NCBI RefSeq assembly: GCF_003940805.1
Contig: NZ_CP034328.1
Location: forward strand, 1,656,001 to 1,720,000
Source of the DNA: Tabrizicola piscis
GTDB taxonomy: Bacteria > Pseudomonadota > Alphaproteobacteria > Rhodobacterales > Rhodobacteraceae
Direction: 5' to 3'
DNA length: 64,000 nucleotides
Part shown: positions 8,274 to 27,618 of the stretch, piece by piece
Position numbering within the stretch: the first letter of the stretch is position 1
Layout of the letters: each line of letters begins with the position of its first letter
The notes under the pieces: model-generated
Told to the model about the DNA's origin: nothing
What the model saw: only the letters and a program-made list of their open reading frames with translations
Database searches by the model: none
Program-made: the position numbers and the translations under genes

Positions 8274-8657
8274 TCAGCCGGGGGCGGGATAGCTGCCCGA
8301 GGCATCGTGCTTTTCCTGACCAGTCAGGGCCGGAGTGAAGACGCAGATGATCCGCAGGTCGGTTTCGGCGCGCAGCAGATGCGCCTCGTGGTGGTCAAGC
8401 ACGTACACCGTGCCGGGGCCAAGCGGCCAGACCTGCCCCGTGGCCACGTTGGTCACCTGGCCTTTGCCTTCGATGACATAGTTCGTTTCGACGTGGTTCT
8501 TGTATTCCAGCAACTGCTCGGACCCGGCCTTGCAGATGGTGTCATGCAGCGAATAGCCAAGCCCATCTGCGGCCAGCAGGATCCGGCGGCTTTCAAAGGA
8601 CGCGCCCTTCACATGGGACGGGGTGTCAAGGATCGAGGCAAGCGTACGGACGATCAT
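8274..8657 (-). CDS. ectC: L-ectoine synthase, orphan copy inside the spc operon
   Basis: EctC is a cupin enzyme that cyclises N-gamma-acetyl-diaminobutyrate to the compatible solute ectoine. The 127-aa sequence matches the family throughout, with MIVRTL at the N-terminus, [29 protein letters not shown] and [14 protein letters not shown]. Residues E57, Y85 and H93, the iron ligands known for EctC, are all at the expected positions, so the protein looks catalytically intact. No ectA, ectB, ectD or ask_ect lies in the window. The gene sits between rpmD and rplO on the same strand, after a terminator. It may act on imported or chromosomally unlinked substrate, or do the reverse hydrolysis reported for orphan EctC proteins. 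Confidence 0.93.
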
Positions 8658-13525: not shown

Positions 13526-13759
13526 CTACCCCAACTTCTCCGCGATCCACATCTTGATCAGCGACTGCCGCGTCACTCCCAGACGCCCGGCCTCCTTGTC
13601 GAGGTCGCGGACCATCCAAGCCGGAAAGTCCACGTTCACGCGCCGCGCCTCCTGATTGGGGCGGCGGGCTTTGGACCAGTCGACGTAAGCGCTGACATCT
13701 TCGCCATTGTCGAACATTTCGTCGAACTGTTCGGTCGTAATCGTCTCACGCGCCGTCAT
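13526..13759 (-). CDS. brnA: BrnA-type antitoxin (ribbon-helix-helix)
   Basis: This is the antitoxin of a type II BrnT/BrnA module: it binds BrnT and represses the operon. The 77-aa sequence ends in a ribbon-helix-helix domain, RRVNVDFPAWMVRDLDKEAG followed by VTRQSLIKMWIAEKLG. It is preceded by the acidic DEMFDNGEDVSAYVDWSKA segment typical of BrnA. Its first 14 nt overlap the end of brnT, the usual toxin-first order. Confidence 0.9.
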   Translation of the reverse strand: MTARETITTEQFDEMFDNGEDVSAYVDWSKARRPNQEARRVNVDFPAWMVRDLDKEAGRLGVTRQSLIKMWIAEKLG

Positions 13760-14009
13760 AGAACATCACCTCCGTTTTTCGCGCCCTCCGGACCGAGATG
13801 ATCCGCACCACCTCACCGCGAAGAGTGCAGACCGCCGTCCAGTGCTTGCCGTCGATCCGACCGATCACAAGGAAGCGCGGCTCGCCATCCGATACGACCG
13901 GAGCATCGGCCAGCCCGTCATCCTGCCAAAGTGCCTGAGCCTCGACGAAGTCGATGCCGTGCTTGACTTTGTTGGCGGCACTCTTGTCTGGGTCGAACTC
14001 GAACTCCAT
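13746..14009 (-). CDS. brnT: BrnT family toxin (RelE-fold ribonuclease)
   Basis: BrnT toxins are RNases that stop translation until neutralised by BrnA. The 87-aa sequence has the family pattern FEFDPDKSAANKVKHGIDF, FLVIGRIDGKHWTAVCTLRG and RIISVRRARKTE near the C-terminus. All the usual conserved basic residues appear present. It lies between the 2OG oxygenase gene and brnA inside the S10 cluster. A promoter with an embedded operator lies directly upstream, and the predicted transcript would be nearly leaderless. Confidence 0.92.
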   Translation of the reverse strand: MEFEFDPDKSAANKVKHGIDFVEAQALWQDDGLADAPVVSDGEPRFLVIGRIDGKHWTAVCTLRGEVVRIISVRRARKTEVMFYDGA

Positions 14010-14014
14010 GAGGC

Positions 14015-14043
14015 AATATAGTATAGAAACTATACCATTTCAA
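14015..14043 (-). promoter_or_regulatory. brnTA promoter with a palindromic operator in the spacer
   Basis: On the minus strand TTGAAA (-35, 14038-14043) and TATATT (-10, 14015-14020) are 17 nt apart. The perfect palindrome GTATAG-AAA-CTATAC occupies 14021-14035, inside the spacer. A repressor bound there would block polymerase, which fits BrnA autoregulation. The -10 ends 5 nt before the brnT ATG, so transcription should start at or next to the start codon. Confidence 0.75.
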
Positions 14044-14051
14044 GTGCGCGG

Positions 14052-14675
14052 TCACGCCCACCCATAGTTGAAGCTGACCGAGATCCGTTCCTCCTCGGAC
14101 ATGTTCATCGGTACCTCGTGGCGCAGCCAGCTTTCCCAGAGGAGAACCTCGCCCACCGCGGGCTTCACATAGACGAACCGCTGCAGTTCTTGCGGCGCGG
14201 TTTTCAGGGGGACCGGGGCCAGCATCATCATCGGCAGGCGGGGGTCCTCCAGCTTGAGCGCGGAGGTCCCCTCCGGCATCGCGACATAGGTCGTGCCCGA
14301 GATCACCGAGTGCGGGTGGATGTGGCTGGCGTGGGTGCCGCCTTCGGGCAGGATGTTGATCCAGAGGGAATTGCATTTCAGCTTCTTGTCGCCAAGGTCG
14401 AAGCCGAGGTCCTTGCAGAAGGCCGCGACGTGCTTGTCCAGCGCCTTTTCCAGATCACCAAAGATCGGCATCCGCCAGGGCAGGTCGTCCAGCGAGGCAT
14501 AGGAGGTGTAGCCGGGATACCCGTTCGCCTCGCACCATTCCTGCCCGGCCTCGTCATCCTCGGCCACCATGTCGCAGGTCTGGTGGAGTTCGGCATAGTC
14601 GACCTTCTTCTTTGCAAGGTCATTGAGACCGGCGCGGTAGAGACGGGTGACGAAGAGGGAGGTGATGGTGGGCAT
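14052..14675 (-). CDS. TIGR02466-type putative 2OG-Fe(II) oxygenase
   Basis: The 207-aa protein MPTITSLFVTRLYRAG resembles the TIGR02466 family, thought to be 2-oxoglutarate/iron-dependent oxygenases. The core has SLWINILPEGGTHASHIHPH, with H118 and H120 as likely iron ligands, then SVISGTTYVAMPEG. A later His (H186, in ESWLRHEVPM) and R197 (ERISVSFNYGW) fit a third metal ligand and the 2OG-binding arginine. The ATG at 14675 was preferred to a longer frame reaching 14735. It is transcribed in the ribosomal direction, 226 nt after rplP. Its substrate is unknown; hydroxylation of a ribosomal protein is one possibility. Confidence 0.78.
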   Translation of the reverse strand: MPTITSLFVTRLYRAGLNDLAKKKVDYAELHQTCDMVAEDDEAGQEWCEANGYPGYTSYASLDDLPWRMPIFGDLEKALDKHVAAFCKDLGFDLGDKKLKCNSLWINILPEGGTHASHIHPHSVISGTTYVAMPEGTSALKLEDPRLPMMMLAPVPLKTAPQELQRFVYVKPAVGEVLLWESWLRHEVPMNMSEEERISVSFNYGWA

Positions 14676-25590: not shown

Positions 25591-25756
25591 CACGGGCCCC
25601 AGAGGTCGCCCCAAGGTCGCCCGGAACGCCCTTGGCGCGAGGGTTGCCACACCCACTCCACCTCTAGATGAAAAACTGAATATGTCCTGATTGTGGCTTC
25701 CGCGACAGGCCGATTCCGTTTATCTTCAGTTAATGTGTTGGTTCCAGAGGGATGTC

Positions 25757-25957
25757 ATGAACAAGATTTTTGCTAGCCTAACCACGTCCGGCCTGCTCCT
25801 TGCGGTCACTGCGCTGCCGGCTCTGGCGCAACGGCCTCGCTTCAATGGCAACCGCCATTCCGTGCCCGAGATTGATGCGTCTGCCGGCCTGCTGGCAATC
25901 GCAGCAGTTCTGGCGATCATGGCTTTTGTCTGGGAACGCAACCGCCGCGCTGCCTAA
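25757..25957 (+). CDS. VPEID-CTERM sorting domain protein, 66 aa
   Basis: A signal peptide (residues 1-24, MNKIFASLTTSGLLLAVTAL ending ALA) is followed by a short stretch QRPRFNGNRHS. The C-terminal sorting signal comes next: VPEID at 36-40, a hydrophobic helix at about 44-59 and a basic end ERNRR. This is the tripartite VPEID-CTERM signal recognised by exosortase E, whose gene lies convergently 57 nt away. The ATG at 25757 has GAGGGAT upstream; an upstream TTG-type extension was not used. If both ends are processed, only about 12-16 residues remain. The role of the mature peptide is unknown. Confidence 0.9.
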   Translation: MNKIFASLTTSGLLLAVTALPALAQRPRFNGNRHSVPEIDASAGLLAIAAVLAIMAFVWERNRRAA

Positions 25958-25986
25958 GCGACGACGCACTGCCAATCGACAGTTCA

Positions 25987-26014
25987 GGGCCCCCAAGTGG
26001 GGCCCTTGCCTTTT
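25987..26014 (+). terminator. Terminator after the VPEID-CTERM gene
   Basis: GGGCCCC/GGGGCCC with a 5-nt loop is followed on the plus strand by TTGCCTTTT. It reaches the last codon of the convergent exosortase gene. Confidence 0.8.
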
Positions 26015-27618
26015 CAGATCAGGCTCCAGTCTCCGCGCCACGCGGCAACCGCAGCCACAACGCCATTGGCCACGGCATGCGACCAGATCGCATCAGACAC
26101 GCGGCCCCGGCGCAGCATGACCGCGGCAAACACCAGACCTGCCAGACCGGCCTCGAACCAGCGGCCATGCAGAAGTGCAAAGGCCGCGCTCGACAGGACA
26201 ACGGCCCCGGCGCGCCGCCACAGCTGTGGCCCATCCAACCGCGCCAGCAGATAGCCGCGGAAAAACATCTCTTCGACGATGGGCACCAGAACGACTGTGC
26301 CGATGATCCGGGTCACGGCCCAAAGCGCAAGCGCCCAGACCGGCAGAGCGAACAGGCTTTCGGTCAAAAGATCATCTGCCGCCGGCGCAGCAAGCACCCA
26401 GCCGATACCAACGACCGCGCCGGAGGCCAGTGCCACCGCATCCGGCTGCCATTCAAAGCGGCGGAACACCGGCAGGAAGAACAGGACCGCAAAGCCAAGA
26501 ACAAAGGTGTTGACCGGCATCCCCAACCCGGGGTGCAGGAACAGGGCCGCAATCAGCGTGCTTGTCACCATGAACAGCGCAAAAGGCAGCAGCTGGGCAG
26601 CAATGATGTCGCTGCGCAATGGCTGCGCGACGACCGGGCGCGTCCCCTCGCGGTGCAGCCAGGTGACCTTCTGTGCCAACGCCATCAGCCCGAAGGCAAG
26701 GCAGGTGAACATCAGCCAGCCAGCGTAGGAATGAAAACCGTTCACCGCTATTTCGGGCGAGATCCGGGCTCCGATCAGGATCAGCAGCGCGATGCGCAGG
26801 ATGTTCAAGATCCAGCTCATGAGCAGCGCAATTGGCAACATCACCAACAGGAACCGCTTCATCCGAACGTCCTGCCGGAAGATGAAGGCATAGATTGCCA
26901 CGAAGACCGTCACGAGGGCGAACCCCTCAACCCCGGAACATTGCGGTGCAATGCTGACGTAGAAATCGTCGATGCCGATGACATATTCGATGGCTTCGGA
27001 ATCCACATTGGCGCTGAACAGACGAAGCGTGGTCTCAACCGCAGAAAAGGTCAGGGCCGTCAGGGCTTGCCAGTCCCAGATTGGACGGATGCTCAGCACA
27101 AGGTCGGGCACCAGTGCCGCAAGCAGCAGGATTGGCACGGTGCTGTGACGCCGGGTCCACAGCACCCTTCCCCATGCGTCCATGGGGGCAAGCCACAAAA
27201 GCCCCCCCGCAATTGACAGAACGGCGCCTGCCGCCCAAGGCAAGAATGCCTGCGAGAAATGCGCGGACAGGTCCTGCCCCCAGAAAACTACCAGCGGGGT
27301 GGCCATCAAGAGGACACCCAGGAAATGGACAGCGCGGGCTGCGCTGTTGCGATGTGTTCGGGTGCTTTGCAGGAATTCAGCAAAAGTCTCTGGCCATGCC
27401 CGGATCAGCAGGGCCGCAACCCCAAGCACGACCAGCGCCCGCAGCACCATGCCCCGAAGGAAGTTGCAGGCACCCATCGCGTCGGTATGCTCACAGACGA
27501 TATCAGCCAGGAATTGATAGGCCAGAGAGATCGCCACCAGTTCCAGCACGAAGATGGCCAGCAAGATCCCTGCCCGACCAAGCCATACGGACGAGATCCT
27601 TGCTGCATCAACTGTCAT
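26014..27618 (-). CDS. xrtE: Exosortase E / CPBP-type intramembrane protease fusion, VPEID-CTERM system
   Basis: This 534-aa polytopic membrane protein has two enzymes in one chain. The N-terminal half is an exosortase with catalytic Cys227 (APQCSGVEGF), Arg275 (LNILRIALLI) and His296 (GFHSYAGW). The C-terminal half is a CPBP/CAAX-protease-like domain, with Glu449-Glu450 (VEEMFFRGYLLARL), His484 (LLHGRW) and His514/Asn518 (SHAVAN). The architecture matches TIGR04162, and the cognate small VPEID-CTERM substrate is encoded tail to tail. No polysaccharide-export genes, the usual companions of exosortases, are nearby. Cys, Arg and His are all intact, so activity is expected. Confidence 0.93.
   Translation of the reverse strand: MTVDAARISSVWLGRAGILLAIFVLELVAISLAYQFLADIVCEHTDAMGACNFLRGMVLRALVVLGVAALLIRAWPETFAEFLQSTRTHRNSAARAVHFLGVLLMATPLVVFWGQDLSAHFSQAFLPWAAGAVLSIAGGLLWLAPMDAWGRVLWTRRHSTVPILLLAALVPDLVLSIRPIWDWQALTALTFSAVETTLRLFSANVDSEAIEYVIGIDDFYVSIAPQCSGVEGFALVTVFVAIYAFIFRQDVRMKRFLLVMLPIALLMSWILNILRIALLILIGARISPEIAVNGFHSYAGWLMFTCLAFGLMALAQKVTWLHREGTRPVVAQPLRSDIIAAQLLPFALFMVTSTLIAALFLHPGLGMPVNTFVLGFAVLFFLPVFRRFEWQPDAVALASGAVVGIGWVLAAPAADDLLTESLFALPVWALALWAVTRIIGTVVLVPIVEEMFFRGYLLARLDGPQLWRRAGAVVLSSAAFALLHGRWFEAGLAGLVFAAVMLRRGRVSDAIWSHAVANGVVAAVAAWRGDWSLI

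Follow-up and report, generated by a model that had tools for sequence, protein, structure and literature searches.

A two-gene exosortase E unit in Tabrizicola piscis and its very small VPEID-CTERM client

Within the 64,000-nucleotide stretch of Tabrizicola piscis DNA that we analysed (hereafter the window), a gene for an exosortase E fused to a CPBP protease lies beside the gene for its sorting client, a VPEID-CTERM protein of only 66 amino acids. Judged from sequence, this pair probably forms a dedicated one-client exosortase E system that would make and display a very short peptide at the cell envelope, a reading in which we place moderate confidence. The evidence comes from the make-up of the two proteins, from a genome-wide search for further clients, and from the size, composition and selection of the corresponding peptides in relatives.

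The gene pair and its client

The client gene occupies positions 25757–25957 on the forward strand, and the enzyme gene, which encodes 534 amino acids, positions 26014–27618 on the reverse strand; both open reading frames were confirmed, and the two genes converge with 56 bases between them. Five bases upstream of the client's ATG at 25757, the sequence AGAGGG (25746–25751, forward strand) is a probable ribosome-binding site, and no site of this type precedes an earlier in-frame ATG at 25733, both as read from the letters. Between the convergent genes lies a terminator-like hairpin of eight pairs (25986–26006, forward strand), which is weak by count, as three hairpins of that kind were found and 2.8 were expected in shuffles. 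By gene calls, rpsL, rpsG, fusA and tuf flank the pair on one side and an EamA transporter gene and rpoC on the other. No polysaccharide or EPS genes are evident among these neighbours, as the first-pass annotation had noted. The ribosomal protein cluster of the window also contains an ectoine-synthase-like gene at 8274–8657 (169 bits, cut-off 128) and, at 13526–14675, a gene for the antitoxin BrnA (131 bits, cut-off 60), a small gene adjoining it and a TIGR02466 gene. The small gene has no family match but resembles a BrnT partner.

Both proteins exceed the cut-offs of their family models, which bears out the initial recognition of a two-gene exosortase E system. The client scored 43.7 bits against TIGR04161 (cut-off 33), covering profile positions 1–29 of 31 with motif, helix and basic end all present, and the enzyme scored 490.3 bits against TIGR04162 (cut-off 150), covering positions 2–516 of 516. 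The client is composed of MNKIFASLTTSGLLLAVTALPALA (signal peptide), QRPRFNGNRHS (core) and VPEIDASAGLLAIAAVLAIMAFVWERNRRAA (tail). Its predicted signal peptide comprises residues 1–24 (25757–25828, forward strand) and ends in ALA before the Q, which we placed from the sequence by the AxA rule for signal-peptide cut sites. The core (25829–25861, forward strand), delimited from the sequence and by comparison with relatives, has 11 residues and no tryptophan. It is followed by the VPEID-CTERM sorting tail (25862–25954, forward strand), recognized by TIGR04161 and by a wider tail profile, in which the motif at residues 36–40 leads into a hydrophobic helix and a WERNRR end. The first-pass annotation had placed the end of the signal peptide near residue 24 and VPEID at 36–40, just as we read them. 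It had also put the mature product at 12–16 residues; the tiny size stands, but the range does not, because the core has 11 residues, and the finished product would therefore span 11–16 residues, depending on the position of the cut. Compared with two near relatives, the whole client gene gave pN/pS values of 0.37 and 0.41, and its last 31 residues 0.12 and 0.14.

In the T. piscis genome, the general exosortase model found one exosortase, and TIGR04161 gave one match above its cut-off and two others at 11 bits. The wider tail profile (A4), which includes VPEV and VPEIS tails, gave one match at 66 bits and four others of at most 17 bits with partial profile cover. This profile is able to detect longer clients, because it found six strong places in a genome that has them (G141, discussed below). 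Client and enzyme are thus adjacent in a genome with a single exosortase and a single strong client match, as the idea of one enzyme with one very small client had it, and the genome-wide look for other VPEID-CTERM proteins that had been proposed found no longer client with either TIGR04161 or profile A4.

The exosortase domain of the enzyme (residues 61–315; 26674–27438, reverse strand) matches PF09721 at 64.8 bits and contains Cys227, Arg275 and His296, which we take to be its catalytic residues and which are invariant in alignments of 31 and of 80 sequences. The CPBP (Rce1-like) domain (residues 433–519; 26062–26322, reverse strand) matches PF02517 at 61.1 bits (cut-off 22.4) and contains Glu449, Glu450, Arg454, His484, His514 and Asn518, of which the first four are invariant in 80 of 80 aligned enzymes and the last two are conserved in at least 90%. 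Conserved residues are therefore present in both domains, in keeping with the original description of a fusion to a CPBP protease with intact residues. Hydropathy averaged over the 80 sequences revealed 16 hydrophobic stretches. The topology predicted from hydropathy and loop charges, which requires that the marginal stretch 189–207 not cross the membrane, places Cys227 and His296 on the periplasmic face and the Glu449-Glu450-Arg454 stretch on the cytoplasmic one. An AlphaFold2 model of the enzyme reached a mean pLDDT of 91.3 and a pTM of 0.80; compared with the PDB by fold, it returned 27 matches, the best at E 1.7 and none useful, and a PDB search by sequence returned nothing at E 0.01.

Distribution of the pair and the cores of its relatives

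In a sample of 295 genomes from the same family, searched at E 0.01, TIGR04162 matched in 34 and TIGR04161 in 37, of which 24 exceeded the cut-off and four were weak partial matches. The enzyme was present in 2 of 32 genomes of the genus sample, which counts against our preferred reading, and in 4 of 385 genomes of the class sample, three of them from the same family, Rhodobacteraceae. For the comparison of loci, relatives were drawn from named genomes, with the best 80 of 187 kept and nearly all titles belonging to Rhodobacterales. A tree of 93 enzymes contains a module A clade (12 labelled rows, SH-aLRT 96), in which the gene order is surface protein, small client, enzyme, and a module B clade (77 rows including the window, SH-aLRT 96).

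Among the 76 loci at which a client was found in either module, 73 have it convergent with the enzyme gene and just downstream, and the remaining three have it tandem and upstream. Nearby rpsL was observed in 12 of 80 loci, 11 of which have rpoC too, as in the window, and other loci adjoin genes for RND efflux, MipZ, homogentisate dioxygenase, an esterase, a lytic transglycosylase or a phosphate transporter. With neighbours as varied as these, the two genes seem to form a portable unit that has no constant partner. A client was not found at four loci, one of which ends at the enzyme (L139) and one of which lies on a short contig (L137); the other two (L068 and L075) have the enzyme and no client in the long flanks that were fetched, which counts against our preferred reading, as does a genome with a client and no exosortase match (G134). 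In yet another genome (G048), client and exosortase are both present, the latter failing the TIGR04162 search.

Several single loci deserve description. At the G134 locus (L152), a Wzz/tyrosine-kinase-like gene lies next to the client and its surface-protein neighbour. One enzyme reading frame is interrupted by one in-frame stop (L080, 6001–7557), and in G216 (L022 and L086) several VPEID motifs occur in one 242-residue open frame, an arrangement that suggests duplication and fusion of units.

Tiny predicted clients are usual among these relatives. We tabulated 104 distinct client tails with the sequence preceding them. The raw cores of 81 module B clients measured 9–43 residues, apart from a single core of 58, and those of 14 module A clients 6–18 residues; some of these raw cores are overlong because automatic parsing placed some signal-peptide cuts a few residues early. 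The length list excludes three mis-parsed rows (L073, L079 and L118), two further rows had no parse, and the module statistics exclude the rows from G141, G007 and G048. Outside Rhodobacteraceae, the client of G375 has a core of five residues. The enzyme at L160 in G141 scored 355 bits, above the TIGR04162 cut-off, and that genome encodes six full-size VPEV-CTERM clients, with the genes of five located near that of the enzyme. The enzyme is thus not inherently restricted to short peptides. A tiny predicted client characterizes modules A and B rather than the enzyme itself, and is not obligatory.

Among 69 non-redundant module B clients (less than 70% alike by text ratio in the last 22 residues), tryptophan accounts for 8.8% of the 22-residue stretch preceding the motif, compared with 1.64% in neighbouring proteins. 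At least two tryptophans occur in the last 22 residues of 40 of the 69 clients, compared with 6.1% of random 22-mers, and at least three in 26 of the 69, compared with 0.8%; in a control made of the last 22 residues of neighbour proteins, 27 of 564 had at least two. Tryptophan peaks 13 to 26 residues before the motif, and glycine, serine, threonine and asparagine dominate the last 12 residues in a linker. No tryptophan is present in 15 of the 69, most of them short, basic and proline-rich. The window client is among these, and its lack of a tryptophan head counts against our preferred reading. None of the 14 module A clients has the pattern of tryptophan head and linker. The 'arginine-rich' label originally given to the peptide accordingly suits the window's sub-lineage but not the family, in which tryptophan-rich heads are commoner.

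Over 15 close pairs, hand-picked, mutually non-independent and with gapped positions excluded, pooled pN/pS was 0.219 for the core, 0.074 for the tail and 0.212 for the enzyme, and the core values of single pairs ranged from 0.06 to 0.84. Core sequences are conserved at short evolutionary distances and differ from genus to genus. The low pooled value suggests that the core is of consequence at those short distances, and the suggestion that the product is a functional short peptide fits tiny cores under purifying selection.

We also looked for DNA motifs upstream of the clients. A full CtrA-type site was present in 1 of 78 module B regions, and a looser one in 6 of 78, compared with 2.6 in shuffles. 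Of 95 regions preceding module B clients, 32 contained a version of a 23-base palindrome, ATTGTTTCC-N5-GGAAACAAT, in which no fewer than 13 of the 18 bases agreed (L127, L126, L013 and L014 are examples), the motif having been derived from the same regions in which it was counted. The background was 1.2% in shuffled stretches and about 1.3% in random ones. In the window it is absent, with 9 of 18 bases at best. Of 16 sites that we chose in four other genomes, six fall within called ORFs (one of these being doubtful), and RTX, Hint or sugar-transferase genes are close to some of the others. The T. piscis genome has nine sites, compared with four for a control, and five of the seven inspected are inside called genes. 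Since it is absent from the window and its genomic sites are often inside genes, the palindrome says nothing about the window.

Processing of the client and rival explanations

In the mechanism that we propose, signal peptidase I would remove residues 1–24, and in relatives that lack a signal peptide the short N-tail would probably be translocated directly. The resulting intermediate would be oriented N-out and C-in, held by the VPEID tail with its arginines in the cytoplasm. The exosortase site, formed by Cys227, Arg275 and His296 on the periplasmic side, would then cut near VPEID and probably hand the peptide to an acceptor, for example a lipid. The CPBP domain, whose glutamates are predicted to face the cytoplasm, may act on the leftover helix or tail rather than on the signal peptide, and the product, 11–16 residues in T. 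piscis, would act at the cell envelope. These points bear on what exosortases attach their clients to and on why a whole sorting enzyme is kept for one client. A finished client of 11–16 residues could be read whole by mass spectrometry, which would give the cut site and any attached group directly.

Having two protease-like domains in a single chain invites the idea, raised in the first-pass annotation, that one protein makes both cuts and that the fusion removes signal peptide and tail alike. The predicted cut after residue 24, however, looks like an ordinary AxA signal-peptidase I site, and the CPBP glutamates are predicted to be cytoplasmic. Moreover, clients without a signal peptide make up 19 of the 93 tree rows and start directly with a short head (for example, MWNWFWSGGWSGG). 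The tree needs five signal-peptide changes, of which well-supported branches force four; the 'no signal peptide' labels behind this count were assigned manually (including those of L134 and L117), and seven rows were excluded from it. Because the signal peptide changed repeatedly while CPBP residues stayed invariant (80 of 80), the CPBP domain would have a job other than signal-peptide removal. It is unlikely to be a signal peptidase, and if the second of the two cuts is meant to be that of the signal peptide, we give the both-cuts idea hardly any credence. In G027 (L117 and L041), three tandem clients without a signal peptide lie beside the enzyme, and a fourth, with a signal peptide, lies elsewhere.

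In module A, a large surface protein adjoins the client, so the small protein might be an accessory that anchors or partners a larger surface protein, namely the neighbouring adhesin in module A and a partner encoded elsewhere in module B. A profile (A2) of the last 230 residues of ten module A surface proteins (L154, L156, L158, L157, L153, L155, L162, L163, L161 and L164) matched 16 of 295 genomes. Thirteen of these have a module A client, and in 13 of 13 such sampled genomes the match adjoins the client just upstream, 208–289 bases before the client tail. The ten proteins carry adhesin-type domains (SdrD_B in nine, Big_9 or cadherin in ten, a thioester domain above cut-off in two), and module A cores of 6–18 residues look more like stubs than effectors. 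Yet in the other three genomes the adhesin occurs with neither enzyme nor client, profile A2 found no match in 19 of 19 sampled module B genomes with the enzyme, T. piscis included, and SdrD_B had no match in the T. piscis genome. The window pair has no adhesin gene of the module A kind adjoining its client, in module B no partner gene stays with the pair from one context to another, and module B cores are conserved among close relatives. We consider an accessory role unlikely. The last residues of all ten module A surface proteins contain an invariant Cys-x-Cys, which resembles Rab-type CXC ends.

Somewhat more doubtful is a product that diffuses away as a signal or as a membrane-active peptide. 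Cores that are conserved among close relatives and divergent between genera, with a tryptophan-rich or arginine/proline-rich make-up, would suit such a product, and CPBP proteases are also known in peptide processing; the MroQ family gave a weak match of 18 bits. The contexts that we examined show no gene for a receptor, an immunity function or an exporter accompanying the pair, and, according to the accessible part of PMC11980579, the clients of such sorting enzymes are believed to stay on the cell surface. It is improbable that the client is never matured and serves as an uncut membrane subunit or regulator of the enzyme: the tail is indeed the most conserved stretch (pN/pS 0.074), but the conserved residues of both enzyme domains are invariant in 80 sequences, and the six unlike full-size clients of G141 share the tail type, which fits a sorting signal.

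Our preferred reading, a displayed envelope peptide made by a one-client system, may be extended to the family, though only tentatively. An exosortase branch may have turned from sorting surface proteins to handling one short conserved peptide, usually a tryptophan-rich head on a flexible linker, whose small size would have made the signal peptide dispensable in some lines. Ribosome and sorting enzyme together would then yield a processed envelope peptide or lipopeptide. If this pattern is true across the family, a sorting machine has become specialized for a peptide, not a structural protein.

Comparison with known systems

The system itself is already known and curated, and the window pair is a new instance of it: it belongs to the NCBIfam exosortase E/protease, VPEID-CTERM system (TIGR04162 with TIGR04161), from which no defining difference sets it apart. 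This analysis describes the size, make-up and selection of the client cores. In the literature covered, which included few subscription journals, we found no paper on core size, make-up or selection, nor any experimental study of a member.

Fusions of EpsH-like and CAAX-protease-like domains, four in number, appear in the available part of Haft 2006 (PMC1569441). The PEP-CTERM/EpsH systems, as that part of the source presents them, share with the window pair the exosortase domain and the tripartite C-terminal tail. They differ in having many clients, EPS loci and sigma-54 promoters, whereas the window has one tiny client and no EPS locus beside it. Within what PMC11980579 makes accessible, the myxosortase MrtX of the MYXO-CTERM system is likewise a CPBP protease that acts on C-terminal sorting tails and has Glu-Glu, His and Asn, but it serves many clients with an invariant cysteine and has no exosortase domain, whereas the window core contains no cysteine. 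MrtJ, described in the same part of that source, resembles the window pair in that the sorting enzyme and its single client, a JDVT-CTERM protein, are encoded as a unit of two genes. Unlike the window fusion, this CPBP protease has no exosortase domain, and its model matches the window CPBP domain at 30 bits, below its cut-off of 75.
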